A DNA stretch of 64,000 nucleotides from Boswellia sacra (lineage: Eukaryota > Streptophyta > Magnoliopsida > Sapindales > Burseraceae): the NCBI GenBank assembly GCA_013180625.2, contig SNVD02002385.1, forward strand, positions 1-64,000. Direction: 5' to 3'. The notes below the pieces were generated by a model. It worked only from the letters and a program-made list of their open reading frames with translations. It was not told the origin of the DNA and did not search any database. Made by a program: the position numbers and the translations under genes. Below, in pieces: positions 1 to 56,021 of this stretch (position 1 is the first letter of the stretch; each line of letters starts with the position of its first letter).

Positions 1-551
1 CACCATGGCTTCTCCCTACTTTACTAGCATTCGCTTGAGTCTTCTTTAACTGTTTGATCACTTGATCTTCTTCTCCCTTGGTTTCTTCTTCTTTGGTAAC
101 TTCTTTGCCCTTCTCAACTGTCTTCTCAGTTGGTTTGTCCTTTTCCTTCCCATGGTAAAAGCTACCACTCCTTGGACATTTTCTCTCTCACCCCTTAGTG
201 TTTCTCGCTCATGTGTTTCTTCCTCAATTCTTATTTCTCCTTCGTTATCACTACTAAAGTCAGCCAAAGAGTTTGGAAGGGTATTTACTTGAGAGATGTT
301 GTCCCAAATTCGCATGACTCTACTTCTTTACACCTTCTAGGCAAGTCCTATATCCTTACAAGGCTCTCAACTCGCTTCCCTTTCCTAAATTCAATGCCCT
401 TTTTCACCTTGAGTCTCTTAAGTGGTGGGCATTTTCTAGCCCCTTTTATAGCCATCCATTTTTTGCCAAATTAGCTTGATGGCATAGGTTTCTCCTTGAC
501 GGGTGTCACTTTAACTTCTTATTCTTTTCTTCTTCTTGTTCTTGGGGCTCC
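1..551. other. Unassigned flank left of the Athila-type element
   Basis: No recognised gene. The minus strand reads as a lysine/arginine-rich open stretch (about 315 down to 58) with acidic patches. It could be a scrap of a retroelement gag or tail, but no family motif is visible. The plus strand is pyrimidine-rich. The stretch ends where the TGATAG end of the 5' LTR begins. Confidence 0.4.
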
Positions 552-1976
552 TGATAGGTGTTTATTTATGTATTACTTTCATATCAATTCGTCTATGTTT
601 CTTTGCTATATTCCTTGGTATTTTTATGTTTTTGTGTGGTTTTGGATGTTTGTAGGAGTTTTGGAGCAACTTGCACAAAAATGGAGTAAAGTCCTTCATT
701 TTCACCTCTGCTAGTCAACCATCTTCTCGGATTTAATTGTATTGATATACAATGAACCCGATGACATGTTGTATACCATTGGAAAGCTCTCGAAGTCTAT
801 TTTCTAGAGAAATTCACGGTTCATGAACTCATTCAGTGTACCAAAAGTTATAATCAAAACAGTGTGAGAAGTGTAGAAATATAATTTCACAAATCTCTGT
901 CGCATGTATAATACGGGGCACTGTAGCAGGTTACTGTAGCAGAGTATATAAACACATTTTAGGGTTTTGTTTTGATAACTTGAAGAGGGGAGAACGTTTG
1001 GGAGGCTTCAGCTCTGTATTTCTCTTTCTCTCATCCCTTGGAGTTCTTGAAGGAGAAAGAAGGCTTGGTAAGAGGAAGAACAACAATCTTAGGAGATTTT
1101 CATCAAATTTGCTAAGTTTTCTTTCCCCTTCATTTTCTGGAATGTCTCCATATTGTATTGTATATGTATTGTGTCTTAATATGTGTAACTAAGTCTGACT
1201 TGGTTGAGGGTGATTTCAAAGCCCTTGATATGGTGTTTGTAAGTTGATTGTGCAAGAAAATATTATCCAATTCTCTAATTGAAGTTGCTTGTATTTTCCC
1301 ATGTTTAATGCTTATGATTGCTTGCTGGATTGTATTTGGGTGGCCAACTGAATATAATATGGATATTGTCGATTGCTAGACTAGAAATCTTGATCCGTAA
1401 TTGTCTTGAATTTCTAATCATTAGTAGCAAAATTGTGATCAGAGATTGCAATTGGAGAATATAACTTAAGTTAAATAATCCGAGCTTGTGTGTTTATTGC
1501 TTAGATCAACCTATCTTTCTTTTCGTAATGCATCCATTAAATTAAATTTAGAGAGCTTGTTCTTGGTTGTTTAATGGATAGAGATTAAATAAAGAGCCTG
1601 TTTTATTTAACAACACAGTAAGGAAAGATTGGGATAACAAAGCTTATTGTTATCTACGGTTGATAATTTCAATGGTGTAATTGGATGATAATTCTACAAT
1701 TAATTCGCAAATCCATATCTTGTGGTAGAGAATGATCCCTTAACCAGATTTCTATCATTGATTAATTCCCATTTCAATTAAGTTTGCATTTTGTTATTCA
1801 TTAATTACCGTCGTATTCAGTTTTTCATCTAGTTAATCAACCAACAAAACCCCCCATTTAGTTAATTGTTGCTGGAAATAACAAATTCAATTAGAATCAA
1901 TCCTCGTGGGAACGATATCTTACTTATCACTTTATTACTTGTGCGACTAGTATACTTGCTAGTTTCGAACGCATCA
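552..1976 (+). repeat. 5' LTR of the Athila-type element (1425 bp)
   Basis: Starts TGATAGG and ends ...GCATCA. It is repeated at 8264-9177 (internally deleted) and 62341-63755 (solo copy). The last ~120 bases, with the block CCTCGTGGGAACGATATC, are nearly identical in all three copies. CTGTAGCA motifs lie just upstream of the TATA box at 945. Confidence 0.9.
945..952 (+). promoter_or_regulatory. TATA box of the 5' LTR
   Basis: TATATAAA lies in the 5' LTR downstream of two CTGTAGCA repeats. The solo LTR has the diverged TATTTAAA at the matching place (62733). The 3' LTR lacks this region through deletion. Confidence 0.6.
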
Positions 1977-1982
1977 AGTTTT

Positions 1983-2000
1983 TGGCGCCGTTGCCGGGGA
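1983..2000 (+). other. Primer binding site, tRNA-Asp type
   Basis: The 18-mer TGGCGCCGTTGCCGGGGA starts six bases after the LTR end. It is complementary to the 3' end of plant tRNA-Asp including CCA, the primer used by Athila-group elements. Confidence 0.9.
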
Positions 2001-2089
2001 TTGATTTTCTAATCGATTTGTTATTTTGTTTTCATTGTTGATTCATATTTTCTTTGTTTTTCTTTTCTGATTGTTTGTGTTTAGACAAC

Positions 2090-3775
2090 ATGGCAGTAAA
2101 CTTCTATCAATTCAGTAGCGGATTTGAGCCACAAGTACCATGGAGAGTAAATGAGGTAAGCACTCCGAACATTGAACAACAACTTTCTGAGCTAACCTCT
2201 CTTGTGGAAAACATGGCTGTAGGAGATATACAAAAATCTTATGAATGTGGGATATATTCTACGATGGAGCATCCAATCGACATGTATCCAACTTTACCAG
2301 AAGAATATATGGAACAAGCCAATGCCATGGGTGGATTTCCAGGACAAACGAGGCAATGGTATGATCCTTTCTCTAGCACTTACAATGCTGGATGGGAAGA
2401 TCAACATAATTTCAGTTACTGGAATCATCAACCAATCACTCCAAATGTGATACCAAATCGGCCACAAGGTTTCAATCAACATAGAGTGCAGCAACCTTTT
2501 CAAATGCAACCACCACCAATGCCACATCTAGCACCGCAACCATCTTCACAAAACTCAGGTATGTCTCTCCAGGACATTGTTAATGCACTTGCCACTAACA
2601 CAATGCAATTCCAGCAGGAAACTAGGGCAAGTATCAAAAACCTAGCAAATCAAATGGGAAAATTGGCTACTAGCATGAGCAAATTTGAGGGCCAAGACTC
2701 AGAAAAATTATCTTCTCAAACGATGATCAATCCAAGAGAGACTGCTAGTGCAATAACTTCACGAAATGGAGAGCAATTAGATGTCTTGCCAAGGAAATCA
2801 CAACCTGATGAAGGAGATGACACCACTTCCATCATGAACAAAACATTGACTTCTCAGGTAAATCCGATAACTCCCATTCTTTCATATGTTACTCCTCCAC
2901 TTTTTCCTAGTAGATTTGCAAAATCGAAGAAGGAGGAACAAGAACAGAAAATCCTAGAAACTTTTTGTAAAATCGAGGTAAATGTACCACTTCTGGATTT
3001 TATCGAGCAAGTACCTCGTTATACAAAATGTCTCAAGGAGTTATGCACCAGCAAGAGAAAATTAAAAGGGAATGAGAAAGTAAGTGTGGGGAAAAATGTT
3101 TCAGCTGTACTACAAAGAAAAATTCCTCCGAAATACAATAATCCAAGTACGATCACCATTCCATGCACCATTGGTAAAACCAAGTTTGAAAGAGCTATGT
3201 TAGATTTAGGAGCATCTGTTAATGCTGATCATTTTAATGCATATCCCAAAAGAGTTGTGGAAGATGTGCTTGTGCAGGTGAATCAATTGGTTTTCCCAGC
3301 AGACTTCTATGTTCTTAAAATAGAGGATGAGACATCTCCTAATCTAACACCGATTCTTTTAGGGAGACCATTCTCGAAAACGGTTAGAATCAAGATTGAT
3401 GTTCATGATGGCACTCTCACCATAGAGTTTGATGGCAAGGTGATCTGTTTCAATATTTTTGAGGCAATGAGGTACCCTAGTGACTTGCATTCTGTTTTTG
3501 TAGTTGACATTATTGATTCTTTGCCACAACAATGTTTTGAGTTAACTCGCAAGGATGGATTGGAAATGGCTATTAGTGAGCACATAGGGACAGAAAATTC
3601 CAAAGAACCAAGAAGGTTGATACAAGTGTCCAAAGAAATGGAGGAAGCTATGGCATGCTTAGATGAGACTATAGCTATAATCACAAACAGGTATGATGTT
3701 TCGTACATTGAATTGCCTTTATCTAATGAGAAACTTCTTCCTTCTGTGATGAAAAGCCAATACCTTGGAGCTTAA
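2090..3775 (+). CDS. Athila gag C-terminal part plus aspartic protease-like domain (stop-free ORF)
   Basis: The ATG at 2090 lies in a good plant context (acaacATGG) and gives 561 residues. An earlier in-frame ATG at 2054 would only add leader-coded residues. The N-terminal capsid-like gag domain of the family is absent: the protein begins in the linker before the zinc knuckle. The knuckle, near residues 50-65, reads C-G-I-Y...H...M-Y, so two of three Cys are Tyr (TGT to TAT changes). A glutamine-rich coil (FQQETRASIKNLANQMGKL) follows. The protease shows LDLGAS with its Asp codon at 3203-3205 (residue 372). The strand between GASVN and NAYPK is missing roughly 25 or more residues compared with the family. 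The later VVEDVLVQVN, VFPADFYVL and LLGRPF motifs are conserved. Function of the product is doubtful. Confidence 0.8.
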   Translation: MAVNFYQFSSGFEPQVPWRVNEVSTPNIEQQLSELTSLVENMAVGDIQKSYECGIYSTMEHPIDMYPTLPEEYMEQANAMGGFPGQTRQWYDPFSSTYNAGWEDQHNFSYWNHQPITPNVIPNRPQGFNQHRVQQPFQMQPPPMPHLAPQPSSQNSGMSLQDIVNALATNTMQFQQETRASIKNLANQMGKLATSMSKFEGQDSEKLSSQTMINPRETASAITSRNGEQLDVLPRKSQPDEGDDTTSIMNKTLTSQVNPITPILSYVTPPLFPSRFAKSKKEEQEQKILETFCKIEVNVPLLDFIEQVPRYTKCLKELCTSKRKLKGNEKVSVGKNVSAVLQRKIPPKYNNPSTITIPCTIGKTKFERAMLDLGASVNADHFNAYPKRVVEDVLVQVNQLVFPADFYVLKIEDETSPNLTPILLGRPFSKTVRIKIDVHDGTLTIEFDGKVICFNIFEAMRYPSDLHSVFVVDIIDSLPQQCFELTRKDGLEMAISEHIGTENSKEPRRLIQVSKEMEEAMACLDETIAIITNRYDVSYIELPLSNEKLLPSVMKSQYLGA

Positions 3776-4019
3776 GCTACTTCCAGATTATTTGAGGCAT
3801 GTGTTTTTGGGTGAGAATGATTCTTTGCTAGTTATAATAGAAATGGGCCTTGCACCACTACAAGAAGAGAAACTCGTCCAAGTACTTAGAGATCACAAAA
3901 TAAATATTGGGTGGACGATTGCTAACATCCAAGGCCCAGCCATATGCATACAACAATTCTTGTTGGAAAAAGGATCCAAGCCCACTAGAGAAGCACAGCG
4001 GGATTGGACCCTCCCATGA
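3765..4019 (+). pseudogene. Start of Athila pol (truncated before reverse transcriptase)
   Basis: Shifted in frame relative to the gag/protease ORF. It reads like the linker before reverse transcriptase in Athila polyproteins: LELKLLPDYLRHVFLGEND, then EEKLVQVLRDHK, then IGWTIANIQG and EAQR. Homology stops at about 4002. All reverse transcriptase, RNase H and integrase coding sequence that should follow (normally several kb) is absent. The sequence passes directly to the noncoding motif at 4042-4080 that lies downstream of pol in intact Athila-group elements. Confidence 0.8.
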
Positions 4020-4041
4020 TGGAACCAACGTCGGGCTGAGG

Positions 4042-4080
4042 ACGTTAAACCAAGCGCTTATTGGGAGGCAACCCAATGTT
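4042..4080 (+). other. Conserved post-pol noncoding motif of Athila-group elements
   Basis: The stretch GACGTTAAACCAAGCGCTTA followed by TTGGGAGGCAACCCAATG resembles the element commonly seen directly after pol in Athila-type retrotransposons. Its position about 40 bases after the last pol codon shows a large internal deletion. A purine/AT-rich tail and pyrimidine-rich stretch fill 4081-4350. Confidence 0.6.
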
Positions 4081-4350
4081 TTTGAAAAATAAAAGAAAAG
4101 AAAAGAAAAATAAAATGAGGTAATAATGATCGATTTTTGTGTCTCAAGGAGATTCCTTTCATAGGCCATCAAATTGATCAGGTTTTATCTCTCTTTGCCA
4201 TCTGTCTCATTTGTTTTATATTTTTTTTACTTGTTTTTACTTTTGTTTGCTATTGTGTGTTTCTCTTTATGTGTCTTTAGTTTCATTTCTGCTAGTTTTT
4301 TTCCTTCCTTTTGTTTAATTTGATTATTTCGTACTTCGAATTCATTTGTG

Positions 4351-4440
4351 CAACAGCTTGAGAAAACATCCAAAGGGGAGCTGAAACCATTGCCCGAAGG
4401 TTTGAAACGTGCATATCTGGGAGAAGAACAAACTCAATCG
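4351..4440 (+). pseudogene. Second, short copy of the Athila pol start
   Basis: One frame reads QLEKTSKGELKPLPEGLKRA and continues YLGEEQT. This is the same part of pol as 3765-3815, but in a version closer to the family consensus. Only about 25 codons are present before the sequence changes to the cysteine-rich ORF. A duplicated, diverged pol fragment points to recombination or template switching between two related elements. The pyrimidine-rich stretch ending TGTGCAACAG just upstream also resembles a 3' splice site. Confidence 0.65.
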
Positions 4441-4474
4441 CATTATCGGTAATATCTCTCCTTTTCTCTCTTCA

Positions 4475-5030
4475 ATGGATGCCGATATCTTTGTGTCAAA
4501 CCTTCGTAAATATTTCCCTTCACTTCCTCAAAATGCTGTGTATAAAATTTATAAAGTACGGATGACTAGACTTTGGGCGTTGATGCTCCTAAATGTGCCT
4601 GCGGGAGATCCGATGGCTTATCGAAGCCAAGGTAAGATTGTCCGGTGAGCCGGACATTAATCTCGCAAAATACATGCCTGGTCTAGGAAAGAGTTACTAC
4701 GCCAAGAGGCGAAGAGCGAAAAGGTTACAAGTATGTTATAAATGTGCTAGATGGAATTGTAACCAGACTTGTCGTTCATTAGGTTTTGCGTCCAGGAATA
4801 GAGAAGATAAACTTTCATTTATTAAGAATGGTTTGAGTAATAAGTCGCTGGATAATGTTTTGTTAATTCTCGAGTCACATTCTTGTGGACTTGTTCAGCG
4901 TGAATTGCTTAATCTATGGACACAATTTCGTGATGAATTGCAGTGTTATAGTCTAGGGAATCTGACTAAAAACGACCCTGTTTGCCAGTTTATAAGAAAA
5001 CTGAATGGAAAGCAAATCCCCGACTCATAG
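4475..5030 (+). pseudogene. Basic Cys-rich protein remnant resembling plant-virus nucleic-acid-binding proteins
   Basis: The reading frame opens at ATG 4475 and shifts once between about 4600 and 4648. The second part then runs to a TAG at 5028. Key block: a Gly-Lys-Ser-Tyr-Tyr-Ala stretch, an arginine/lysine run (4701-4727), then four Cys codons at 4734, 4743, 4758 and 4770 (C-x2-C-x4-C-x3-C), followed about 15 residues later by Phe-Ile-Lys-Asn-Gly. A basic run directly before a short zinc-finger-like knuckle, after a hydrophobic/helical N-terminus, is the layout of the small RNA-binding silencing-suppressor proteins of Betaflexiviridae (Pfam Carla_C4 / Viral_NABP). The ORF (~184 codons) is longer than those proteins and the Cys spacing is tighter than in carlaviruses. 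The match is by eye only. The copy is broken. Confidence 0.5.
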
Positions 5031-5260
5031 AAGGCGTTTCAGCCGTTACTCGACGTAAAACCAGAGGAAGATGTGAGTCACAATCACACCTACTTGTATA
5101 TTTGAATGTGTGTTATTGTTGTCGAATTTTATTTTTTTTCTTATTTCGTTTGATCTGATTATCAATGTTGTTTTTGTGTTGTTGTTGTTTGTTGATTTTG
5201 TTTGTTTTAATTTCAAGTTTTCTTTTTGACAAACCATATGACTACCCTATGGCATAAGTA
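5031..5260 (+). other. Spacer between the Cys-rich ORF and the hairpin repeats
   Basis: After the TAG at 5028 the same frame stays open for about 24 more codons, so TAG could be a CAG to TAG change. A GTGAGT match to a 5' splice site lies at 5073-5078. The rest is T-rich. Confidence 0.35.
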
Positions 5261-5527
5261 CACGTGGGAGACAAGTGTGGAGGTTTGTCAACCTCCACCG
5301 AAAGTGTATCTCTATTTTTTATGCTTCACGTGGGAGACAAGTGTGGGGGTTTTGTCAAACCCCGCCGAAAGTGTATCTCCATTTTCCATGCTTCACGTGG
5401 GAGACAAGTGTGTAGGTTTTGTCAAACCCCGCCGAAAGCATATCTCATTTTTCAAATCTTGGGGCGATAAATCTGCATCGAGCAAACCCCCACCGAAATT
5501 ATGTCCCCATGTGTCAAATTTGAGAGT
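5261..5527 (+). repeat. Four-copy ~67-bp tandem repeat with hairpins
   Basis: Units start at 5261, 5327, 5394 and 5461 (66, 67 and 67 bp apart). The first three start CACGTGGGAGACAAGTGTG; the fourth is diverged. Copy 1 holds GGAGGTT-TGTC-AACCTCC (5279-5296) and copy 2 GGGGTTT-TGTC-AAACCCC (5346-5363). Each is a perfect 7-bp stem with the same TGTC loop, and two base pairs are changed on both sides. Copy 3 keeps a 5-bp stem. A CCRCCGAAA motif follows each hairpin. Confidence 0.85.
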
Positions 5528-5602
5528 TTTACGTGTGTATATATCCATTCTGCATATTTTCAAATGTCATTTCATAACCTGTCTTGCACTTGAATCACAT
5601 AA

Positions 5603-5647
5603 TACTAACGTGCATCATTGTCTTACACAAGTTTAGAGCACTTGTAG
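5603..5647 (+). promoter_or_regulatory. Possible branch point and 3' splice site before the LOG-like ORF
   Basis: TACTAAC at 5603-5609 is a perfect branch-site match. AG dinucleotides at 5635-5636 and 5646-5647 lie 26-38 bases downstream, the second two bases before the ATG at 5650. With GTGAGT at 5073 this could define an intron spanning the hairpin repeats. Inference only. Confidence 0.35.
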
Positions 5648-5649
5648 AA

Positions 5650-6300
5650 ATGGAGAAAACACCAATTCGGCGATTCCAAAATATATGCGTATTTTGTGGA
5701 TCGCAATTTGGTAAAGATGGAGAGTTTACAACAGCAGCTCTTGATCTTGGTAGGACATTAGCTGCGAGGGGTATTCATTTGATTTATGGAGGGGGTAGTC
5801 TTGGGTTAATGGGGTGTGTGTCAACAGCTGCATCCTAGGAGGAAGCAAAGTTCTCGGCATTATCCCTAAACCATTAGCTGTACGAGATATCGTAGGCAAC
5901 ACCATGGGGGAAGAGTTACAGGTTTCTAGTATGCATGAGCGTATTGCACATATGGTCATTAAATCTGATGCATTTATAGCTTTGCCCGGTGGTTATGGTA
6001 CATTAGAGGAGATATTTCAAATCACCTCTTGGGCACAGCTAAACATCCATCGGAAACCCATTGGTTTGTTAAATGTCAATAAGTTTTTTGATGGTTTGTT
6101 GTCTTATCTTGATCAAGCAGTAGAAAAAAAACTTCATCTCACAGTCGGCGAGGCAAATCTTGGTTACAGCTTCAACTGCAGGGGAGTTAATTGATAAATT
6201 ACAAGCATTCGTCTATTCGCCTGATCCAACAATAGCTCGGATAGATTGGTTTGCGGAGGGCAATAAAAGGCGTAAACTGGATTTAGCGCTCCATCTATAA
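5650..6300 (+). pseudogene. LOG: LOG-like cytokinin riboside 5'-monophosphate phosphoribohydrolase, intronless, two frame breaks
   Basis: From ATG 5650 the protein reads ICVFCGS, then [11 protein letters not shown], then after a frame change near 5820-5832 GGSKVLGIIPKPL, MHER and the family signature PGGYGTLEE, then SWAQLNIHRKPIGLLNV. A second frame change near 6140-6154 returns to the first frame for TASTAGELIDKLQ and a stop at 6298. The span of about 216 codons equals the usual plant LOG length (215-220). LOG enzymes release free cytokinin base from the nucleotide in the cytosol. The catalytic Arg in MHER and Glu in GTLEE are retained. Plant LOG genes normally carry several introns and none is present here, so capture through an mRNA is likely. 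It lies inside an LTR retrotransposon between pol remnants and the 3' LTR. Pseudogene here because of the two indels. Confidence 0.85.
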
Positions 6301-8251
6301 TCTTTATCTGCTGGTTTGCTTCACTTTTGTTTGCTTTCTTTTTATTGTGTTTATTTGAGATTTTTCATGTTATTTCTTTTGAGCTTTTTCAGGTTATTTC
6401 TTTCGTTCCAGGTAATATTTTCTAATCTTGGTTTTAGAGTGGTGGCTTAAAAAGTTCAAGTTCTCTTGAAACGCATTCTGGTTTTCTTTTATCCATAATG
6501 GCTGAATAAGGAGGCTAACTTCTAAACTTTTTAGACCCATTCTAACTAAATTGTTTGTGTTTGCTGGCTTGTTGGACTTTGTTATTTTATGAGTAAGTTT
6601 AGTTTTCTGTAATTTAGGGTTGTTATGTGTTTTTGTCTTTATCAGTTTCGATTCGAAAAAAAAAAAATTGTGGAAAAACCTGAGAATGGCAGAACATGGG
6701 GTTTCTGTAACCCTTGAAACGCATTCTCTTTAAATAAATCTGTAGTTTGTTTATTTCATGTTGTTTGAAGTGTCTTGTTTCTTGTTTTGTTCTTTCATAA
6801 TAAAGGTATATAGGCTGGAAACCTTAAGTCTGCGGGCTACTGGTCCTAAGGATTGTTGAAATATACAATCTTGACTCAGGTGTAACAATGCCACGTACCT
6901 CTTTTCTTGCATTTTGTGGGTCGATGATAAGATAATGATTGAATTAAGAATAACTCTTGGAAAATGATAAATGATGCATGGATCTGTGTGCTTGAAATGT
7001 TTATTGGTTTTCGCTTTGCTTTTGATTCCTTGCGCAACATTGAGCACTGAGCTATTATCACTGAGTTATTTGTTCACTTAGAGAAAGTTTATGTAATTTA
7101 AATGTTTCTTCAGATTTCAATGAATTCTAGAACTTGTTTGATGGTCACTCGAGGCGAAATCCTAGACTGTGCAACATTGGGGAAATGATTTAGGCCATCT
7201 TTGGACCGTTTGAGCCTTAATAGCCAACCTTGACTGAAATTGATCCCTAGTTAACCCTTTGAGCCTCTGTAAGCCTTTTTCTTTGTTAACTCACTAAAAG
7301 ATTTCCTAACCTCAAATGAATTTGTTCCAAACAGTTTATCCCTTACCTATGAGCATGTAGATCATTCACAATTAAATTTTGAGCTATGTTCTGGTTTTGG
7401 GAAGTTAGAGGAGGTTGGGATGTGTCATGAGCAATGCAAGTGAGTTCTATTGTGCTTGTAAAAAAAAAAAGAAAAAAAGCCAATCTGTACTTATTGTCCA
7501 CATACTTACACATTGGGGACAATATGTTGTTTAAGTGTGGGGGGAGGAGAAGTGTAATAAAAAAAAGAAAAAAAAAGAGAACAAAAGAAGAAGAATAAGA
7601 GATCTATACCCTTAAGTGTTCTTAAAAAGAATGAAACAACAAAGTGTGGGGGTGTAGTTTTCTTTTGTTTTCTACAAAAAAAAAAAAAAAGATTGAGTGT
7701 TCTAAATAAGTTTGGGGAGTAACCTGGTGAATTGAAATGAAGTTGTGTTATAGGGTTGAGCTCTACATAGTCTTGAATGATTTATGTGTTTGTGGGTGAT
7801 TTGAGCCAAATTATTATCCTTTATCATACCTTCACCCAAGCCAAACATTACAAGCTTAATAAAGCCCTACTTGATCTTTAGTTTTGTGCTTGTCTACATT
7901 AGTGGACAGTGACTTGAAAAGCAAGCCTATGGAGTTCATTTATACGCACATCTTCACTATTAAATATGATTCATTTTATGCATAAACTCATCCGGGTTAG
8001 AAATGATTAGGTGAGAATGGCTCTACACACACACACTGTGGAGGAATTGAAGTGAAGCGAAACTAATCTTTGAGATAAAATTCTTGATCAAGTGCGTTAT
8101 TTTGAAGTTTTCCTTGGGTTATAATTATGTACAATCTTTGAGGCCTATTTGCAAGTTGAAGCATTTGTGTGTTTTAATTTTTCTATGATTCTGTTTCGGT
8201 TTAGTTTTATTTCACATCGTTGTAATTGCTCGAGGACTAGCAAAGTCTAAG
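6301..8251 (+). other. 3' internal noncoding region of the Athila-type element
   Basis: About 1.95 kb without supported ORFs. It has T-rich and A-rich runs (7460, 7560, 7675) and several copies of an AAGTGTGGGGG-like phrase (near 7535, 7640 and 8250), as is common in the long untranslated part before the polypurine tract of Athila-group elements. Confidence 0.6.
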
Positions 8252-8263
8252 TGTGGGGGAATT
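8252..8263 (+). other. Polypurine tract of the Athila-type element
   Basis: TGTGGGGGAATT lies immediately before the TGATAAG start of the 3' LTR, the expected place for plus-strand priming. Confidence 0.75.
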
Positions 8264-9177
8264 TGATAAGTGTTTATTTATGTATTGCTTTCATATCAAT
8301 TCGTCTATGTTTCTTTGCTATATTCCTTGGTATTTTTATGTTTTTGTGTGGTTTTGGATGTTTGTAGAAGTTTTGGAGCAACTTGCAAAAAAATGGAGTA
8401 AAACCCTTCATTTTCACCTCTGCTAGTCAACCATCTTCTCGGTTTTTGTGAGTTGATTGTGCAAGAAGTTGTTATCCAATTCTCTAATTGAAGTTGCTTG
8501 TATTTTCCCATATATAATGCTTATGATTGCTTGCTGATTGTATTTGGAATGGCCAACTGAATATAATCTGGTTGTTGTCTATTGCTAGAGTAGAAATCTT
8601 GATCCGTAATTGTCTTGAATTTCTAATCCTTAGTAGCAAAATTGTGATCAGAGATTGCAATTGGAGAATACAACCTAAGTTAAATAATCCGAGCTTGTGT
8701 GTTTATTGCTTAGATCAACCTATCTTTCTTATCGTAATGCATCCATTGAATTAAATTTAGAGAGCTTGTTCTAGGTTGTTTAATGGATAGAGATTAAATA
8801 AAGAGCCTGTTTTATTTAACAACAAAGTAAGGAAAGATTGGGATAACAGAGCTTGTTGTTATCTACTGTTGATAATTTCAATGGTGTAATTGGATGACAA
8901 TTCTATGATTAATTCGCAAATCCATATCTTGTGGCAGAGAAGGATCCCTTAACCAAGTTTTTCTCATTGATTTTTCACTCAAATTAACTTTCTATTTTGT
9001 TATTCTTCATTTGTATTCTTAGTTCATTTAGTTAATCATTCAACAAAACCCCCTTATTTAGTTTATTTTTGCTGGAAAATAACAAATTCAATTAGAATCA
9101 ATCCTTGTGGGAACGATATCTTACTCATCACTTTATTACTTGTGCGACTAGTATACTTGCTAGTTTCGAACGCATCA
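8264..9177 (+). repeat. 3' LTR of the Athila-type element, internally deleted (914 bp)
   Basis: Matches 552-1976 from TGATAAG to GCATCA, but jumps near 8441 from CTTCTCGG straight to TTTTTGTGAGTTG. It therefore lacks about 500 bp that include the TATA box at 945 and the transcription start region. The rest aligns closely. Confidence 0.9.
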
Positions 9178-9189
9178 AATATATTGTCT

Positions 9190-10592
9190 GAAGGATATTA
9201 TGTTTGATGGTCAGGAGTCATTGGGTGTTAATATCACATACAACAAAGCATAGAGGGCAAAAGAGGCAACTTTGTAAGAACTTCACGGATCTCATGAGAA
9301 ATCATTCATACTACTCCCCCAGTATATGTACATGATTCAGAAAGCAAACCCGGGGACCAAAATGACTTTAGAAACTTCTGACAAGAACAATTTGAGATAC
9401 TTTCTCATGAGTATGGGGGCCTCTATTACCGGATTTGCATAATCAATTAGGTCAGTGATCGCAGTTGATAGATCTTTTCTAAAAGGGAAATATAGAGGTA
9501 CAATGTTTTTGGCTTCTTGTATGGATGGAAATAAACAAATATACCCATTGGCATTTGGAGTTGACCATTCTGAAAATGATGACTTATGGAACTGATTCAT
9601 GAGACAGTTGCGTGGTCATGTAGTACGAAATGTCCGAGATCTTGTTTTCATTTTTGACCATCATCGTAGCATTGAACGAGCTGTTGCAAAAGTTTTTCCT
9701 CGTGTATTGCATGGATTGTGCACTCATCATCTGAAGGGTAACTTGAAGGCCATGTTCAAGGACAAGACTTTGTTGGATATATACTCCCGAGCTGTAAGGA
9801 CATATCACTGTGTTGATTTCAACTATCATATGTGGGAAATTGAATTGTATATGCCTGCAACAACAATTTATCTTCAAGAGATTGGAGTCGATAAATGAGC
9901 ACGTTCACAGTTTCATAATCAACGGTATAACATCATGACAACAAATATTGTTGAGTCGATGAACAGCTGCTTGTGACATGTGCGATTCCTTTCGGTTACA
10001 TTATTAGCAGATTATTACTGGGCGAACTTGCAGTAATGGTTCTACGAGCATCGAGAGTTTTTTGCTAACTTAGAATTACATCTCTCGTTGTGGGCTAACA
10101 AGTTGATGGAGGAGCGTTTAAAGAAGGGCGAATGTATAAGAGTTACTAGTATCTCTCTTATTATGTATGAGATGAGAGGCAACAACCATGTCAATGTCAT
10201 TGACATGCACGTTCAGCGTGTTTGATCCTGACCAGCTTTCGTGTGCACATGTATTAGCTATTTGCAAATGTGTGAACCTACTAACATGCCATGATTATTG
10301 TGCCCATTAGTATACAACTGAAACATTACTACATGCATATGCTCTGCCAATTGTTCCTATTGGAGTTAGTGAGAATTGGATGGTTCCTAAGGAAATATGC
10401 AGCAGAGTGGTTCTACCTCCAGTCATAAGGAGACCAGTTGGTTGTCCTCAGAGGAAACGAATCCCTTCCGTCAGTGAGTCTAGTTCGTCTCAAAATTGCG
10501 GACGTTGTGAAAATTTGGAGCACAATCGTCAGACTTGTCGAAACCTAGTTCCACTTGATGTTGTTGCTGGGGTGCATCGGGACAGGGGATGA
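9190..10592 (+). pseudogene. mudrA-type MULE transposase
   Basis: Broken by stops and shifts, but long parts are readable: VIAVDRSFLKGKYRGTMF (first catalytic Asp), DGNKQIYPLAFGVDHSEND, LVFIFDHHRSIERAV (second Asp), FPRVLHGLCTHHLKGNLK, then NIMTTNIVESMNS, a decayed SWIM-type zinc finger region, AYA...VLPP repeat-like tail and a C-terminal zinc knuckle CGRCENLEHNRQTC near 10498-10540. This is the domain order of plant MULE transposases. The protein would cut and rejoin DNA at MULE ends in the nucleus. In-frame stops include TGG to TGA in the LWNWF-like motif near 9594. The start lies left of 9190 and is cut off by the LTR at 9177. Confidence 0.85.
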
Positions 10593-11019
10593 TGTCTGCC
10601 AAATGTACGGAACGAGTATTTTTCTCTATGTAATATTTTTTGTTTGCTCTATGTGATTTAGTGTATTTATATTATTGCATCAGATGCTAGTTCAAATGAC
10701 TAAACTTTTATTTATGTGCTTTTGTCAATGTATAAAACATTCATGTATAAGACATTCATTTATGTGCTTTGTCAATCTATAAAACATTCATGTATGAAAC
10801 ACGAATTTATGTGCTTTCTCAATGTATAAAATATTCATGTATGAAAAGTTTCTAACAACATACACATATGTACCAATACATCTGAAAAAAAATATATTTA
10901 CATTTTTTCATACTGACCTTTTCACTTGACTATACAAGTAATACCCCTATACATGAAAAAAATATGCTAGTATACAAAATATGTAACTATACAAAAATGT
11001 GTAAATATACAAAAGTGTG
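10593..11019. other. AT-rich spacer between convergent MULE genes
   Basis: No ORF. Holds the tandem repeat at 10711-10853 and AT-rich sequence with many short TATACAAAA-like phrases. It probably contains the 3' ends of both converging transcription units. Confidence 0.5.
10711..10853. repeat. Three-copy ~48-bp tandem repeat
   Basis: Units starting TTTATGTGCTTT at 10711, 10759 and 10806, each with TCAATGTATAAAACATTCAT or a close variant. Confidence 0.85.
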
Positions 11020-17169: not shown

Positions 17170-20100
17170 ATGGAGTTTATACGAAATCGAGGATCTGGAT
17201 CACAAACACTGATTCTTAATGAAGGTAATTATTCATTTTGGAAAGCGAGAATGATGATGTATATAAAATCTCTTGATGACAGGAGATGGACCAGTGTCTT
17301 AAGAGGTTAGACAACATTGACACAATTAAATGCATTTGGAGCTTCAGTACTTATAGCTAAGGAGGAATCAACTGATGAGGAATACAAGTGTTCTAGTTGG
17401 AATTCAAAGGCACTCAATGCGATTTTTGCAACTGTCAATCTTAACAACTTTGGTCAGATTTTAAGATAAAAATTAGCTAAAGAAGCTTGAGATATTATTG
17501 AGGTAAAACATGAAGGTACAACTTTTATTAAAAGATCTAAATTGATGAGATTGAATTCACAATTTGAGAATCTAATGATGCATGAGGATGAATCAAGATC
17601 TAATTTTTATTCAAAGTTGTGTCATATTACAAATTATGCATATATGCTTGGTAGAACTTTTACAGATGCAAAAATTGTTAGTAAAATCATTAAGTCTATT
17701 CCTAATAAATTTCAACCAAAGATCTCTGCCATTGAAGAAGTAAAGAACACTGATGAGATGAGGGTTGATGAACTTGTTGGCATTCTTCATAATTTTAAGA
17801 TTAATCGTAACACTAGGAAGCAAAAAGGTAAAAGCATTGCATTCATTGTTAAGACTAAAAAACCTGATGATAAAGGTAATGATGAGTTTGATGAAATTGA
17901 TTCATAACAGATTGCTTTTCTAACAAAAAATTATGTTAAGTTCATGAAAAAGAATTTTAGGAAAAAAATCAATGAAAGGTGTCAAGCTCAAGTGATGACA
18001 AATTCAGAAAATTCATCAAGGAGAACGACAAGAAGAGTCCAAAACAACCTGATAGGAAATGGCAGATTCAATGCTATGAGTATTCTGGTTATGGGCATAT
18101 TCAATTTGAATGTACTAATCTCAAAAAAAAGAAGAACAAAGGAATGTCAGCTACATGGAGTAATGATTCAAAGACTAATTTAGATGATCAAGAATGCATT
18201 AGCAACTTTGTGGTATTCACAACATCTGCAACTAATAAAGGAAAAGCTGTTATGTCTAGTACAACAAAACAATGCAGAACTGATATGAACATTCAGATGC
18301 AGAAAATGATCCTAAATATTATGAAGAGTTCACAGAAACCTACAATGCACTTTATATTGAATGGCTGAATCAGAAAGAGGAAATTAGAACTTTGGAGAAG
18401 GAAAATGAAGTGCTGAAATGTGAAAAAGCCTTTGTTGAAAACTGCACCAGTGAACTAGAGTCTGCATTGAAAGACAAAATAGACCATGTTTAGAAAATTA
18501 GCAGAACTAGTTGAAAGCAGAAGATTTGTTTATCAACATAGAACTAGGTCTACAAAACTTGATCAACTTTTGAGCCTTGGGAGAAACAGTTCTAACAAAC
18601 ATGGCTTGGGTTACTCAGAAGGTAACATTGCATCTTTATCAAATATTATGTTTGTAAAAGCCTCAACATCAGGTAACATTTCTAAACCTAACTCAAAAAA
18701 GTCAAGCCCTAGCTTAAAAAGTAATGATGTTTTATGTCTCCTTTGAGTTCTTTTAATTCTAGTCCTGAAAAGGGAAGACTATTTGTTCCACCATGTTATT
18801 TTTGTGGTGTCAAAGGGCATATTAGACCTAGATGTTAAATTGTTGAATCTTTTGTATGAAAGATCAAAATAGTTCAAGCAATTACCTAAGACACGACAGC
18901 AGCAGATTAAGAAAAATAGAACAACCTGCAATGTTGCTCTTACTACACTTAATGATACTAATGACATGTGGTATTTTGATAGTGGCTACTCCAGGCATAT
19001 GACTGAAAATAGAAATTTTTTGAAAAATCTCGAGTCATGCGGGGAAGGAAATGTCACATTTAAAGATGGTGCAAAGAGCAAGGTGATTGGTAAGGGCACT
19101 TTAAATGTGAAAGGCTTACCTAAATTTCAAAATGTTTTGCTTGTTGATGGATTGAAAGCTAATTTGATTAGCATTAGTCAGATATACGATGACAGGTATG
19201 TTGTTAACTTTACTCATAATAAATACATTATTTTAGATGGTGTAGGAAAATGCATTTTAGAAGGAAATAGATCTTCGGATAATTGTTGCTTGGTAACAAA
19301 TGCATTTCATGCTAGGATATCAGATTTGGAATTATGACATCAAAAGTTAGGACATCTAAACTATAAAGACTTGGTTAAACTAACTAAGTTGGGTGCTGTT
19401 AGAGGTGTTCCTAAACTTAATGATAAATCTGATGGGATATTTGGACCATGTCAATTAGGAAAACAAATTAGAGGGTCACATAAGTCTATATGACATCTTC
19501 GCACATCTAAAATACTTGATTTGTTTCACATGGATCTTATGGGTCCTATACAGATTGAAAGCAATTCTGTTAAAAGATATGTATTGTTGTGTCGATGATT
19601 TCTTTAGATACACTTGGATTAATTTTATTAGAGAAAAGTTTGACACATTTGAAGCTTTCAGGAATCTTTGTGTTAAGCTTGAAAATGAGCAAAACAGGAA
19701 CATTGGCAGGATAGTAAGGATAAGGAGTGACCATGGCAAGGAGTTTGAAAATGTCAGCTATGCTGATTTCTGTAAATACCATGAAATTACACATGATTTT
19801 TGAGCCCCTAAAACATCTGAACAAAATGGTGTTGTCGAGAGAAAGAATATGACACTTCAAGAGATTGCTAGAGTGATGCTTAATACCAAAAAGTTGACCA
19901 GAAGGCTATAGGTTAAAGTAATAAGCACTGCTTGTTATATTTCAAATAAAGTTTTTCTGAGACCTAGCACTAACCAAACTGCTTAGGAAATTTAAAAGGA
20001 AGAAAACCTAACTTGAAGTATTTTCATGTTTTTGGATGTAAGTGTTACATCTTAAACGACAAAGAGCAAGTAGGTAAATTCGATCCTAAAAGCGATGAAT

Positions 20101-22036
20101 GAGTCTTTGTGGGATATGTACTGAACAATAAGGCATTTTGAGTTTACAATCTTTAAACTAAGACTGTAATAGAGTCTGCAAATGTATTATTCAATGACCT
20201 TAATGATTATACAAAGTATTCTGATGAAGAAAGCATAACCAGCTTCACAGAAAATGTAAAGAAGATTCTGTTATGAAAGAGGAAACAATTGCTGTTACAT
20301 CAGATACAATAATAACATTTGATAGCACAGAGTTGGATAGAAACTTAATAAAAATGATGATGAAAGAAAAGATCCACCTTCTTGGATACAAAGGGCACAT
20401 CTAACCGACTCAATCATTGGAAGTCTAGATGGTATGATGAAAACCAAAATCAAGGTAAGAAATCAGATTAGATTTGTTTGTTATTTTTCATTAATTGAGC
20501 CTAAGAATGTGAAAGAAGCCTTAAAAAAGGATGTTTGGATTCAGGCTATACAAGATGAACTTAATCAGTTTAAAAGAAATGAAATTTGGGAATTAGTTCC
20601 TAGGCCACAAAATGCAAATGTCATTAAAACCAAGTGGATATTTAAGAACAAAACTGATGAGAGTGGTCAAGTAGTTAGAAATAAAGCTAGATTAGTGGCA
20701 CAACATTTCACACAAGTAGAAGGCATAGACTTCGATGAAGCTTGTGCACTAGTAGCTAGACTTGAGTCTATCAGATTATCACTCGCTATTACTTGCTTGC
20801 TTGCTTGATTTTAAATTGTATCAAATATATGTTAAGACAATCTTCTTGAATGGTTATCTTAATGAAGAGGTTTTTGTTGAACAACACAAAGGATTTGAAG
20901 ATCCTAAATATCTTGATTTTGTGTACAAGTTGCATAAAGCTTTGTATGGTTTGAAACAAGCTTTAAAAGCTTGGGATGAAAGGTTGACAAATTTTCTGAT
21001 TAAAAAAGGTTGTACTAGGGATAGCAATGAAATAAGACTTTGTTTATCAATATCCATCTAGTTATTTATTGTTGCTCAAGTGTATATAGATGATATTGTG
21101 TTTGGCTCAACTAACAAAAACAAGACTAATGAATTTGTTAAGTTGATGCAAGAAGAGTTTGAGATGAGCATGGTAGGGGAATTAAATTTCTTTCTTGGAT
21201 TATAGGTTAAGCAAAATGGATGATTGGATATTCATATATTAATCAAAATATGCTAAGAATCTTGTAAAGATATTTGAACTTGAAAAGGAAAAACCTATGA
21301 GAACTCTTATATGTACTAACTTGAAACTTTCCAAAGATGACGCAGGAAAAGAGATTGATACAAGTTCGTGTAAGAGCATCATTGGCAGCTTATTATACCT
21401 CACTACAAGTAGACCAAATTTATATTTCAGTGTAGGACTTAGTGCAAGATTTCAAATAAATCCTCAGGAATCTCACTTCGCAGCAACCAATAGAATCATC
21501 AAGTATGTTCATGAAACTTATGACTACGGAATATGATTTTCTTACAAAATAAATGCTTATCTTGTAGGGTTTAGTGATATTGATTGGGCAGGGAATGCAG
21601 ATGACAAAAAGAGCACATCAAGGGGATGTTTTTACCTTGACACTAACTTGGTTTTTTGGCATAGCAAAAAGCAAAATTCCTTCTAATTGTCCACGTAGAA
21701 GCAGAATACATTACAGCAAGGAGTTGTTGTACACAACTACTTTGGATGAAGTAAATGCTAAGTGATTATGGTATTGAATGAAAACCTATAACTATGTTTT
21801 GTGATAATATTAGTGCTATAAATATTTTCAAAAATCTAGTCCAACATTCTAGAACAAAACAACATTCTAGAACAAAACACATTGACATAAGATACCATTT
21901 TATAAGGGAGCTTGTAGAGTCAAAGGTAATACACATTGAACACATTTCTAACGAATTTCAATTAACTGACCTGTTCACTAAGGCATTAGATGCAACAAGA
22001 TTTGAGAATCTAAGAAAGGCTTTAGGCATTTGTTAG
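17170..22036 (+). pseudogene. S1 gag-pol (copia) remnant
   Basis: Starts MEFIRNRGSG at ATG 17170 and ends at TAG 22034. Gag has NYSFWKARMMMYIKSLDD and SKLMRLNSQFENL (DUF4219/UBN2-type). Its knuckle near 18072-18113 has Tyr for the second Cys. Protease has the DSG Asp at 18978-18980. Integrase keeps Asp codons at 19533 (HMDLMGP) and 19729 (RSDHGKEF) and Glu at 19837 (VVERKN), but one zinc-ligand Cys is Phe (FGPC near 19440). Reverse transcriptase has KARLVAQ and YIDD at 21083-21094. RNase H and the tail HSRTKHIDIRYHFIRELVES end the polyprotein. More than a dozen stops and several shifts make it non-functional. A 15-bp duplication (HSRTKQ repeat) lies near 21845-21875. Confidence 0.88.
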
Positions 22037-51131: not shown

Positions 51132-54100
51132 ATGGAGTTTATTTGCAATGGAGGATCCAGAACACAACCACCTATTCTTGATGATAGTAATTACTCATAT
51201 TGGAAGATAAGAATGTTGATGTATATCAAATCTCTTGATGACAGGGCATGGACTAGTGTGCTTAAAGGATGGACACTGCCAACAAAAGTGAATGCTTTTG
51301 GTGATTCCAAACCCAAATCAGAGGATGAATGGACTGATGAAGAATAACGACGTTCCAATTGGAATTCAAAGGCTCTCAATGCAATCTTTGCTGCAGTGGA
51401 CTTAAACAACTTCAAACAGATTTCAAGGTGCAAAGTAGTCAAGGAGGCATGAGACATACTTGAGGTAAAACATGAAGGTATTGTATCGTTAAAAGATCTA
51501 AATTGATGAGATTAAATTCTCAATTTGAAAATCTGACGATGCATGAGGATGAGTCAATTTCTGAGTTTTACTCTAAGATATGTCACATTACAAATTCAGC
51601 ATACATGCTTAGCAAAACTTTCACTGATGCAGAAATTGTTAGCAAGATAATTAGGTCTGTTCTAGATAAATTTCAACCTAAAATTTCAGCTGTTGGGGAA
51701 GTTAAAAACACTGATGAGATGAGGGTTAATGAATTGATTGACATTCTCCAAAACTTTGAAATTAATCAGAGTACTAGGAAGCAAAAAGGTAAAAGCATTG
51801 CATTCAATGTGAAAACTGAAAAATCTGATGATGAAAGTAGTGATGAGCATGATGAAACTGATTCTAAACAGATTGCTTTTCTAACAAGAAATTATGTTAA
51901 GTTTACGAAAAGAAATTTTAGGAAAAAGAATCAAGGAAAGCCATCAAACTCAAGAGAAGAAAAATTCAGAAAGTTCAGCAAGGAGAATGACAAGAAGAAG
52001 TCAAAACAACCTGAAAAGAAAGGGCAGATTCAGTGTTATGAATGTTTTAGTTATGGGCATTTTCAATCTGAATGCGCTAATCTCAAGAAGAAGAACAAGG
52101 GACTGACAGCAACTTGGAGTGATGAATTAGAATCGAAGTCAGAAGATCAAGATTACATGAGCAACTTTGTTGCATTTACTACATCTGTAGCTGATAAAGG
52201 GAAAGCTGTTATGTCTGACATGACAAAAAATTACAGAACCAGTGTTGATCATTCTGATGAAGAAGATGGACCAAAATACTATGAAGAGTTGCAAGAGACA
52301 TACAACGTACTCGATGGTGAATGGCTGAATCAGAAGGAAGAAATCAAAATCTTGAAAAAGAAGATTGAGGTGCTGGAATGTGAAAAATCGTATGCTGAAA
52401 AACAGATCTCAGGACTGGAGACCGTTTTGATAGACAAAACAGCGCATATTGAGAAAATCACAACAGAACTGGTTGAAAGCAAGAGGTGTGTTGATTAACT
52501 CAAAATAGGAGCAGGTAAACTTGATCAGGTCTTGAGTCTTGGAAGAGACAACTCCAACAAACATGGATTGGGGTACATAAAAGGTAATGTTGCATCTTCA
52601 TCAACAACTATTTTTGTTAAAGCTTCAACATCAAGTAAGAATTCGGATCTTAACTCTTTAAAGTTAAGCCCTGATTCCAAAAGCAGTAAGACATTTGTCT
52701 CTCCATCGAGTTCTTTTAAATCTACTTCTGAAAAGGTAAAGAAATTCATACCAACTTGTTATTTTTGTGGTAAAAAGGGACATATTAGGCCTAAATGCTT
52801 TAAACTGTTGAGTCTATTGCATAAGAGATCAAAATAGTTCAAACTGTTACCAAAACCACAACTGCAGTGGGTTAAGAAAGACAAGACAGTATGTCATGTT
52901 GCTCTTACTGCTCTTAACCAATCATCTAACGATTTGTGATATTTTGATAGTGGTTGTTCCAGGCACCTGACTGGAAATAAACTATTTCTAACAGATTTTA
53001 AAGCATGTAGGGATGGTAATGTCACCTATGGAGATGGAGCAAAGAGTAAGATCATTGGTAAAGGTACTTTGAATATCAAAGGTCTACCCAATTTTCAAAA
53101 TATCTTGCTGGTTGAAGGTTTGAAAGCTAATCTTATTAGTATTAGTCAGATTTGTGATGACAAGTATATTGTTAATTTCAAACAAAACAAATGCATAGTC
53201 TTAGATAATTTTGGTAAATGCATTCTAGAACGTAATAGATCTTTCGATAATTGTTATTTGATAAAGAGTGCATTTCATGCTAGGATTTCAAATTTAGAAT
53301 TATGGCATAAAAAATTAGGACACTTAAATTACAAAAACTTGGTTAAATTAACTAAGTTAGGTGCTGTAAAAGGAGTTCCTAAACTTGATGACAAACTTAA
53401 TGGAATTTGTGGACCATGTCAAATGGAAAAACAAATTAGAAGTTCACACAAGTTAAATCCACATCTTAGCACATCCAAAATACTTGATTTGCTTCACATG
53501 GATCTTATGGGTCCTATGCAAATTGAAAGCATTACAAGTAAGAGATACATATTTGTTTGTGTGGATGATTTTTCTAGATATACTTGGGTTGATTTTATTA
53601 AAAAAAATCTGACACTTTTGAAGCTTTTAGGAATCTTTGTGTTAAGCTTGAAAATGCACAAAACAAGAACATTGGCAGGATTGTGAGAATAAGACGTGTT
53701 TATGGCAAGGAATTTGAGAATGTTAGCTATGATGACTTCTGCAAATATCATGGCATTGATCTTGAATTTTCAGCCCCCACAACCCCTGAACAGAATGGCA
53801 TTGTGGAAAGAAAGAATAGAACTCTTCAAGAGATGGCTAGAGTGATGCTCAATAGCAAAAAATTGACCAAGAGCCTATTGGTTGAAGTTATAAGCACTGC
53901 TTGTTATATTTCAAATAGAGTTTTTCTTAGACCTGGCACTAACCAGACACCTTATGAAATTTTGAAAGGTAGAAAGCCAAATTTGAAATTTTTTCATGTT
54001 TTTGGATGCAGATGTTACATCTTAAATGACATAGAGCATTTAGGAAAATTGGATCCAAGGAGTGATGAAGGAGTCTTCATGGGATATGCCCAAAATAGTA

Positions 54101-56021
54101 AAGCATTTCGAGTTTACAATCTGAGAACTGAGGCAGTCATGGAATCTGTAAATGTAGTATTTGATGATCTTGATGATTATGCAAAGTACTCACTAGAGAA
54201 ACGCATAACCAGCTTTATAGAAGACACAAAAAAGTCAGTTTTAGATAGCAACAATAAAGAAGATTCTGTTATGAAAAAGGAAATAGCTGCTGTTACACCT
54301 GACGTAACAGTAACATCTGACAACTCAGATTTGAACAGGAATTGAATCAGAAATGAAGAAGAAAAGAAAGATCCACCCACATGGATTCAGAAGGCACATC
54401 CAACAAGTTTTATCATTGGAACACCAGATGGTATGATGAAGACTCGGAGCAAGGTAAGAAATCAAGTAAGGTTTGCACGTTATGTTTCTTTAGTTGAACC
54501 AAAAAATGTGAAAGAAGCCTTAAAAGAAGATGTTTGGATTCAAGCCATACAAGATGAACTTAATCAGTTTAAAAGGAATGAAGTATGGGAATTAGTTCTT
54601 GGGCCAGAAAATGCAAATTTCATTGGAACTAAATGGATATTCAAAAATAAAACTTATGAAAGTGGATAAATAGTAAGAAATAAGGCTAGGCTAGTTACAC
54701 AAGGTTACATACAAGTAGAATGCATAGACTTTGATGAAACCTTTGCATCAGTAGCTAGACTTAAGTCAATCAGATTACTACTTGCAATTGCTTGTTTGCT
54801 TGATTTCAAATTGTACCAAATGGATGTTAAAACAACATTTTTAAATGGCTATCTCAATGAAGAAGTCTTCGTTGAATAGCCTAAAGGATTTGAAGATCCT
54901 AAGCATCCTGATTTTGTGTACAAATTGCATAAAGCTTTGTGTGGTTTAAAACAAGCTCCTAGAGCTTGGTATGAAAGGTTGACAAACGTTTTGATCAATA
55001 GAGGTTATAAAAGAGGCAGCAATGATAAGACTTTGTTTATCAAACATGCATCTAACTATCTTATTATTGCACAAAATGTTGTTGACATTGTTTTCGGATC
55101 AACTAACAAAAGCAAAGCTAATGAGTTTGTTAAGTTGATGCAGGAAGAGTTTGAGATGAGCATGGTAGTAGAATTAAATTTCTTTCTTGGATTACAGGTT
55201 AAGCAAATGAATGATGGAATATTCATATCTCAATCAAAATATGCTAAAAATCTTGTAAAGAAATTTGGGCTTGAAAATGCAAAACCAATGAAAACTCCTA
55301 TCAGTACTAATCTAAAACTTTCAAAGATAATACAGAGAAAGATGTTGATGCAAGTTTGTACAGAAGTATTATTGGCAGCTTGCTATACCTCACAGCAAGT
55401 AGACCAGACTTGTGCTTTAGTGTAGGATTGTGTGCAAGATTTCAAGCAAATCCAAAGGAATCACATCTTGCAGCAGCTAAGAGAATCATCAGGTATGTTC
55501 ATGGAACATATGATTATGGAATATGGTTTTCTAAAGATACAAATAATTATCTTGCAGGGTTCAGTGATGCTGATTGGGCAGGAAATATAGATGATCGAAA
55601 AGCACTTCGGGAGGTTGTTTTTATCTTGGTACTAACTTGGTTTCATGGCACAACAAAAAAACATAATTCTATTTCTTTGTCTACTGCTGAAACCGAATAC
55701 ATAGCAGTAGGAAGTTGTTGCACATAACTACTATGGATGAATCAAATGTTGAGTGGCTATGGTTTTGAACAAAAGGCCATAACTGTGTTTTGTGATAATA
55801 CTAGTGCTATAAATATTTCTAAAAATCTTGTTCAGCATTCTCGAACAAAACACATTGACATAAGATACCATTTTATAAGGGAACTAGTAGAATCTAAGGT
55901 AATACACATTGAACACATCTCTACTGATAGACAATTGGCTGACTTGTTCACTAAGGCATTGGATACAACAAGATTTAAAAATTTAAGAAAAGCCTTAGGC
56001 ATCTGTCAGTTATCTGAATAA
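51132..56021 (+). pseudogene. S2 gag-pol (copia) with few lesions
   Basis: Starts MEFICNGGSRTQPPI; gag has YWKIRMLMYIKSLDD, a long open part (51503-52498) with an intact CCHC knuckle (CYECFSYGHFQSEC, 52034-52075) and a second knuckle CYFCGKKGHIRPKC (52757-52798). Protease DSGCSRHLTG has its Asp at 52946, right after a TGG to TGA stop. Integrase has HHCC residues, HMDLMGP and VERKN (Glu 53806), but the second catalytic Asp is Val (53698, RRVYGKEF against RSDHGKEF in S1). Reverse transcriptase lost its YVDD box: it reads N-V-V-D at 55075-55086. RNase H (SDADWAG) and the HSRTKHIDIRYHFIREL tail are well kept. Stops at 51345, 51450, 52496, 52937, 54667, 54878 and 55725, plus a few shifts. Inactive. 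Confidence 0.9.

Follow-up and report, generated by a model that had tools for sequence, protein, structure and literature searches.

An Athila-like retrotransposon lineage of Boswellia sacra with a viral-type NABP gene and a LONELY GUY-type gene downstream of pol

A LONELY GUY (LOG, YgdH) domain was reportedly found in Ty3/gypsy retrotransposons of Citrus and Populus by Steinbauerova et al. in 2011. Here we analyze a 64,000-nucleotide stretch of Boswellia sacra DNA (assembly GCA_013180625.2, contig SNVD02002385.1, forward strand, positions 1 to 64,000; hereafter, the window) that contains, at positions 552-9177, a pol-deleted, Athila-like Ty3/gypsy element with two open reading frames (ORFs) downstream of the pol remnant: one related to the NABP of carlaviruses, which we take to be the family of carlavirus p12, and one of the LOG type, with 67-bp tandem repeats between them. 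Comparison with other copies in the host genome shows that NABP and LOG are genes of the element that evolve under selection and that they did not replace pol, which was lost through a separate internal deletion.

The occurrence of LOG domains in gypsy elements of Citrus and Populus is in print (cited in PMC9289625), and these elements resemble the Boswellia family in that a LOG-family domain resides inside a plant gypsy element. Cytokinin activity is regulated by LONELY GUY proteins according to the available text of PMC9289625, and the works it cites deal with cytokinin-activating enzymes and with the direct pathway of activation; its account of the Citrus and Populus elements, in the part available, mentions neither an NABP partner nor a mass-amplified subfamily that lacks pol, and describes no test of selection. 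Gypsy elements of Phalaenopsis that encode an AlkB demethylase, mentioned in the same text, have likewise captured an accessory enzyme gene, but the enzyme is different and no viral-type partner is named there. In position, between pol and the 3' long terminal repeat (LTR), and in sense orientation, the cassette matches the aORF-3S LTR elements of plants, which, in the accessible part of PMC7264820, carry an env-like ORF, whereas the Boswellia family carries two genes, of the LOG and viral NABP types. A precedent for an RNA virus gene in a retrotransposon, with silencing suppression as the proposed role, is provided by the R1 long interspersed nuclear elements of insects with tobamovirus-like helicase domains (PMC4686597 and PMC6338049, in the portions available), which differ from the Boswellia family in being non-LTR elements of an insect host. 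According to PMC7588395, p12 of the carlavirus chrysanthemum virus B is a nuclear transcriptional activator and a cytoplasmic silencing suppressor; the cassette NABP shares with carlavirus p12 the Pfam families Viral_NABP and Carla_C4 and a basic stretch preceding the Cys cluster but, unlike it, comprises about 182-184 amino acids, displays the CX2CX4CX3C pattern and is encoded by a retrotransposon.

In the open-licence literature searched, we found no report of an NABP-LOG pair in a retrotransposon, of its conservation or of a mass-amplified pol-deleted form; the available text of PMC6317226 and PMC11963269 contains no LOG, YgdH or carla terms, and that of PMC3136472 and PMC2714080 names no NABP. 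The original prediction, made from the sequence of the window, presented the cassette as a new kind of transposon cargo. Because LOG-bearing gypsy elements are already in print and the pair was not found reported, this applies to the pairing with NABP and not to LOG itself: the element belongs to a known type, LTR elements with extra post-pol ORFs, and the pairing appears to be new.

Position of the cassette and loss of pol

A search of the host assembly (638.6 Mb) with window positions 4378-6300 as the query yielded 6,373 candidates, 40 of which were scored, all of them matching. Apart from the window, 21 of the 40 span nearly the entire query at 92-96% identity; we fetched 20 of these which, together with the window, make up a first set of 21 copies. 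In 15 of the 20 fetched copies, as in the window, the pre-reverse transcriptase (pre-RT) part of pol abuts an untranslated motif that in pol-bearing copies is found 3' of integrase (from position 4020 in the window). In three others (L009, L015 and L028), the two are separated by about 2.65-2.8 kb that encode RT, RNase H and integrase and are followed by the same cassette. Thus, the cassette lies between pol and the 3' LTR, and pol was not replaced. Two further copies, L011 (cut by a contig end) and L021 (nested), have flanks of the pol-bearing type and were counted as such in later comparisons. L009 and L028 also have, in their 5' pieces, a capsid domain that is missing in the pol-deleted type, and L028 retains both LTRs and a TTGAC target duplication. 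The order gag-protease-RT-RNase H-integrase in the family fits Ty3/gypsy, with the protease placed by position and alignment and without a Pfam match; the window copy lacks the capsid and the stretch from RT to integrase. The features of the window copy are as follows.

552-1976, forward strand: 5' LTR (TG...CA), preceded by GCTCC, which is not matched at the 3' end of the element
1983-2000, forward strand: primer binding site TGGCGCCGTTGCCGGGGA
2090-3772, forward strand: gag/protease remnant, an open frame without a capsid domain
3753-4016, forward strand: pre-RT stub of pol, 88 codons
4003-4032, forward strand: pol-deletion junction, found 3,322 times in the host assembly (at most 3 mismatches)
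4357-4449, forward strand: cassette leader adjoining NABP, with a relic of a pre-RT peptide (ELKPLxxxLKxxxLGE)
4475-5030, forward strand: NABP ORF (Viral_NABP/Carla_C4), broken here (open part 4593-5030), 184 amino acids when intact
5261-5454, forward strand: 67-bp tandem repeat, 2.9 units, between NABP and LOG
5650-6300, forward strand: intronless LOG-like ORF, broken here, 216 amino acids in intact copies
6265-6297, forward strand: C-terminal KRRKLDLALHL (basic stretch plus LxLxL), common to many retrotransposon-type LOGs (retro-LOGs)
6301-8263, forward strand: 3' untranslated part with a purine tract at its end, just before 8264
8264-9177, forward strand: 3' LTR, with about 500 internal bases fewer than the 5' LTR

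The predicted anatomy of the element, with paired LTRs, primer site and purine tract, a stub of about 80 codons of pol, a basic, Cys-rich viral-like ORF and an intronless LOG-like ORF, both broken in this copy, is thereby borne out. The primer site recurs with at most one mismatch in 9 fetched copies. No Retrotrans_gag domain was detected in the window gag by the Pfam scan, and about 780 bases of the 5' part of gag that L037 and L038 hold are absent from it. The Pfam ATHILA ORF-1 domain was not reported among the gag pieces scanned (the window and the pol-bearing 5' pieces); this domain is a mark of the Arabidopsis Athila elements, and many Athila elements lack it.

In pol-bearing copies, TGATGG occurs at either end of the segment that the others have lost, and once inside it as well, which is consistent with deletion by a jump from one short repeat to another. 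The loss of pol is a separate internal deletion common to the pol-deleted subfamily. In pattern counts (30 bases for the deletion junction, with at most 3 mismatches, and for the NABP 3' end), the deletion junction occurs, as listed above, at 3,322 places in the assembly, the 3' junction of pol-bearing copies, with an intact pol 3' end, at 516 places and the 3' end of NABP at 4,806 places; the reversed control patterns were found at 0 places. On the assumption that the majority of pol-deleted copies have the full length of about 9.2 kb, they can be estimated to constitute nearly 5% of the assembly.

For a sample free of selection by cassette similarity, we went through the first 100 exact matches listed for each junction and manually chose 12 pol-deleted and 8 pol-bearing copies with sufficient room on their contigs. 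NABP is present in all 20 (with 412 bases only in L056) and LOG in 19, being absent in L056 and cut by a contig end in L046. Both ORFs are full length or one codon short in three of the 20 copies, and a fourth has LOG plus an NABP frame that is longer. Of the 21 copies of the first set, window included, 7 have an intact NABP and 3 an intact LOG.

These observations bear on the claim of the original prediction that the cassette took the place of pol. The order of sequences in the window, by itself, favors such a replacement, and the pre-RT relic that precedes NABP could mark an ancient event of replacement and rejoining. Against it, pol and the cassette occur together in pol-bearing copies, and the eight additional copies chosen through the pol 3' junction all contain NABP, seven of them with LOG. 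Replacement of pol in the present elements is ruled out by the pol-bearing copies with the cassette, and for the window element we regard it as extremely improbable. The leader DNA could be aligned in 41 copies, pol-bearing and pol-deleted alike (with indels in a few), which leaves room for an older replacement event. The peptide similarity was assessed on a single copy, L009, in which the leader matches the pre-RT peptide at 11 of 19 residues (E = 1e-5 in a single comparison), above all 1,000 shuffles; the relic perhaps represents a scar of the joining of the cassette.

Of 10 pol-deleted copies checked, 7 sit between perfect 5-bp target duplications, whereas L010, L016 and the window copy (GCTCC versus AATAT) do not. 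The LTR-pair distances of six of these seven (the value for L014 was left out) range from 0.0155 to 0.0716, which points to repeated insertions spread over time. Hence the pol-deleted copies form a non-autonomous LTR subfamily, in which one internal deletion is shared by many independently inserted copies. L014 and L016, on two contigs, agree in the alignment values of their 5' halves and in the 5' flank but differ in their 3' halves, which could stem from recombination, haplotypes or an assembly join. The predicted status of the two genes as element cargo is upheld by the 21 near-full copies, the 4,806 places with the NABP 3' end and the target duplications: the genome search with 4378-6300 recovered copies with intact ORFs, with the same flanking junction (15/20) and with 5-bp duplications of their own. 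The opposite case, a single cassette formed by independent insertion of the two ORFs into the window copy, as an artefact or by coincidence, did not hold given these NABP counts and the colinear copies; no supporting point was found, and we assign it no probability.

Elsewhere in the window, inspection by eye revealed a MULE-type transposase-like open frame just outside the element (9596-9898) and Copia-type gag, integrase and RT frames at 17491-20808 and 51476-55727, seemingly two more retroelements. There is also a 47-bp direct repeat of three units at 10721-10861.

NABP, LOG and the sequences between them

The NABP piece of the window matches Viral_NABP (E = 8.2e-10, 39.5 bits; curated cut-off 23) and Carla_C4 (E = 2.7e-5, 24.5 bits; curated cut-off 20.9), and the two families were detected in 36 and 37, respectively, of the 39 rows scanned (window included) at E 0.01. 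Going by these matches, the protein is a member of Viral_NABP/Carla_C4, with putative nucleic acid-binding and silencing suppression activities. Among 222 candidates, 213 are relatives, 120 of which were listed; many of the latter are 181-184 amino acids long, their named hosts are Rhamnella, Populus, Xanthoceras and Orobanche, and 99 of the 120 have the CX2CX4CX3C pattern. A sequence search of the PDB with NABP produced just two matches, at E of about 0.9; a scan of IMG/VR with the NABP alignment gave 36 pattern matches with no relative among them, and no NABP relative was found in phage records.

The LOG piece at 5799-6191 matches Lysine_decarbox (E = 6e-32), and residues 5-201 of the 216 of a full-length relative (P0122) align to a solved Arabidopsis protein of this family. 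The PGGxGTxxE motif is present in 104 of the 120 LOG relatives listed, and several of the 16 misses are fragments. The family match and the motif fit LONELY GUY, with a predicted cytokinin ribotide phosphoribohydrolase activity. An LxLxL end is found in 43 of the 63 relatives of at least 205 amino acids, accompanied by a basic pair in 42; we take it to follow the pattern of an EAR-like repression motif.

The listed LOG relatives come from hosts that include Rhamnella, Xanthoceras, Reevesia, Diplodiscus, Primulina, Orobanche and Diospyros, plants that span several orders. In a quick tree, 61 listed relatives and one host-genome copy are set apart from four host LOGs and one bacterial LOG (support 92), in a sample of few hosts with a long outgroup branch, where retro-LOGs were assigned by similarity and not by context. 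Contigs of the same sizes (8723, 2128, 2425 and 4511) appear in both the NABP and LOG lists, and one size (10263) is common to the NABP and integrase lists; only shared sizes above 2 kb were used, and 905 and 734, too short for both genes, were ignored. The start of the Primulina LOG model P0228 resembles an integrase C-terminus by eye, a similarity not reported by Pfam. A protein filed under the bacterium Modestobacter lapidis (P0356), on a 1.3-kb contig, is 67% identical to the plant integrase of this family and is likely contamination.

The predicted hairpin tandem repeats stand as 67-bp repeats, with three units in each of 21 copies, whereas the hairpins themselves are weakly supported. 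In an alignment without L016 and L023, which comprises 57 of the 63 units, 93.6% of the cells of the outer helix, 67.8% of those of the inner helix and 79.3% of all cells are paired, compared with 47-65% in slid versions, but the covariation is no better than in shuffles, 309 of 500 of which reach it. An Rfam search of 500-9300 gave no match in the repeats and two matches in the LTR, both far below the family cut-offs. A possible splice donor, TGTGAG, lies 3' of NABP (window 5072-5077; present in 36 of 41 copies) and, together with an acceptor-like TTAG 5' of LOG (5618-5652), brackets the repeat spacer.

Selection on NABP and LOG

Both genes evolve under purifying selection, with a ratio of nonsynonymous to synonymous rates (dN/dS) of about 0.25. 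For the junction-picked copies, the pairwise values are 0.25 for NABP (20 copies; 0.77 and 1.05 in the other frames) and 0.26 for LOG (19 copies; 1.06 and 1.57). The first 21 copies yield 0.24 and 0.34 pairwise and 0.27 and 0.23 against one reference copy, the latter values being below all 200 context-matched random placements. In pol-deleted copies, no coding constraint is apparent in the gag remnant, at 0.64 in 14 copies (0.60 and 0.71 in the other frames), or in the protease-like part, at 0.59 in 15 copies (0.60 and 0.73), and the pre-RT part yields 1.03 (16 copies); in three pol-bearing copies, the protease part is at 0.25 (other frames 0.89 and 1.79).

Singleton variants, with nonsynonymous to synonymous (N:S) counts of 69:25 in NABP and 92:28 in LOG and 10 and 7 stops, respectively, represent mostly decay after insertion. 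Variants shared by at least three pol-deleted copies show 6:23 and 15:34 and no stops; the corresponding counts for gag and protease, 49:26 and 21:11, do not depart from those of singletons. Taken by itself, this contrast would point to selection on the cassette within the non-autonomous elements. The near-neutral, stop-containing singletons and the thousands of dispersed, often broken copies are what a mobile lineage would show, as opposed to a host gene that has become fixed. They therefore speak against a role of the cassette as a domesticated LOG/NABP reservoir that serves the host through an antiviral or developmental benefit, an explanation that the retained LOG family match and catalytic motif would suit and that we nevertheless consider very improbable.

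The best competing explanation is that the cassette is a passenger in pol-deleted copies: selection would act only in pol-bearing elements, template switching would resupply good cassettes, and the success of the pol-deleted copies would be due to their LTRs and packaging signals alone. We see this as a possible account, short of a probable one. It gains from the trees, as LOG mixes the two types and the post-integrase sequence separates them, and from the constrained shared variants, most of which occur in pol-bearing copies too. It is opposed by the protease-like region, which is also homologous between the types and yet unconstrained in pol-deleted copies (0.59) as opposed to pol-bearing ones (0.25), and by the retention of the cassette in 12 of 12 junction-picked pol-deleted copies (one LOG cut by a contig end).

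The explanation we favor, with moderate confidence, is that an Athila-like gypsy lineage carries NABP and LOG downstream of pol as selected element genes, with proposed effects on the host. Several observations weigh against it. The shared variants private to pol-deleted copies are few (N:S 3:5 in NABP and 6:2 in LOG), whereas those also found in pol-bearing copies are constrained (3:18 and 9:32), and variants in exactly two pol-deleted copies are singleton-like (11:6 and 22:8). In the LOG tree, built from 39 of 41 copies, the types are intermingled, with 10 changes and a single clade rejected (approximately unbiased test, p = 1.5e-135); in the NABP tree (40 copies) the mixing is intermediate (6 changes, p = 0.21), and in the post-integrase tree (40 copies) the types are nearly separate (2 changes). 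Given the private and shared counts and the mixed LOG tree, the constraint seen in pol-deleted copies may come from exchange with pol-bearing ones. The neutral expectation for dN/dS in the random placements is itself below 1 (means of 0.66 for NABP and 0.74 for LOG). The pol frames of L009, L015 and L028 are interrupted, the structure model of NABP (P0001) is poor (pTM 0.32, mean pLDDT 69), the LxLxL tail is not universal among the long LOG relatives (43/63), and linkage of NABP and LOG in other plants is suggested solely by matching contig sizes. The claim that selection within pol-deleted copies is proven is weakened by the counts of private versus shared variants.

Proposed roles of the cassette

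In the favored scheme, an NABP akin to the Cys-rich proteins of carlaviruses and a LOG-type, presumably cytokinin-activating enzyme are encoded by accessory genes behind pol, in the 'env' position. An internal deletion with TGATGG at both ends and the loss of the capsid account for the non-autonomous subfamily at about 3,300 places, which presumably spread on Gag-Pol supplied in trans. NABP would bind nucleic acid and damp RNA silencing and/or act in the nucleus in the manner of carlavirus p12. LOG would release active cytokinin, favoring dividing meristematic cells in which new insertions become heritable, and the basic-LxLxL tail of retro-LOGs may confer a nuclear or repressor function. Jointly, the two proteins might thus mean less silencing and more dividing cells. 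A stronger version, under which the population of several thousand copies without Gag and Pol is itself selected to deliver the NABP suppressor or transcription factor and LOG, reprogramming the cells that found the germ line, appears unlikely.

If the favored explanation is correct, a conserved viral-type protein and a cytokinin enzyme would equip the element to counter control by the host and to promote proliferation of host cells. The naturally intact copies make the functions of NABP and LOG directly testable, and the non-autonomous subfamily offers a test case for cis action of cargo genes.

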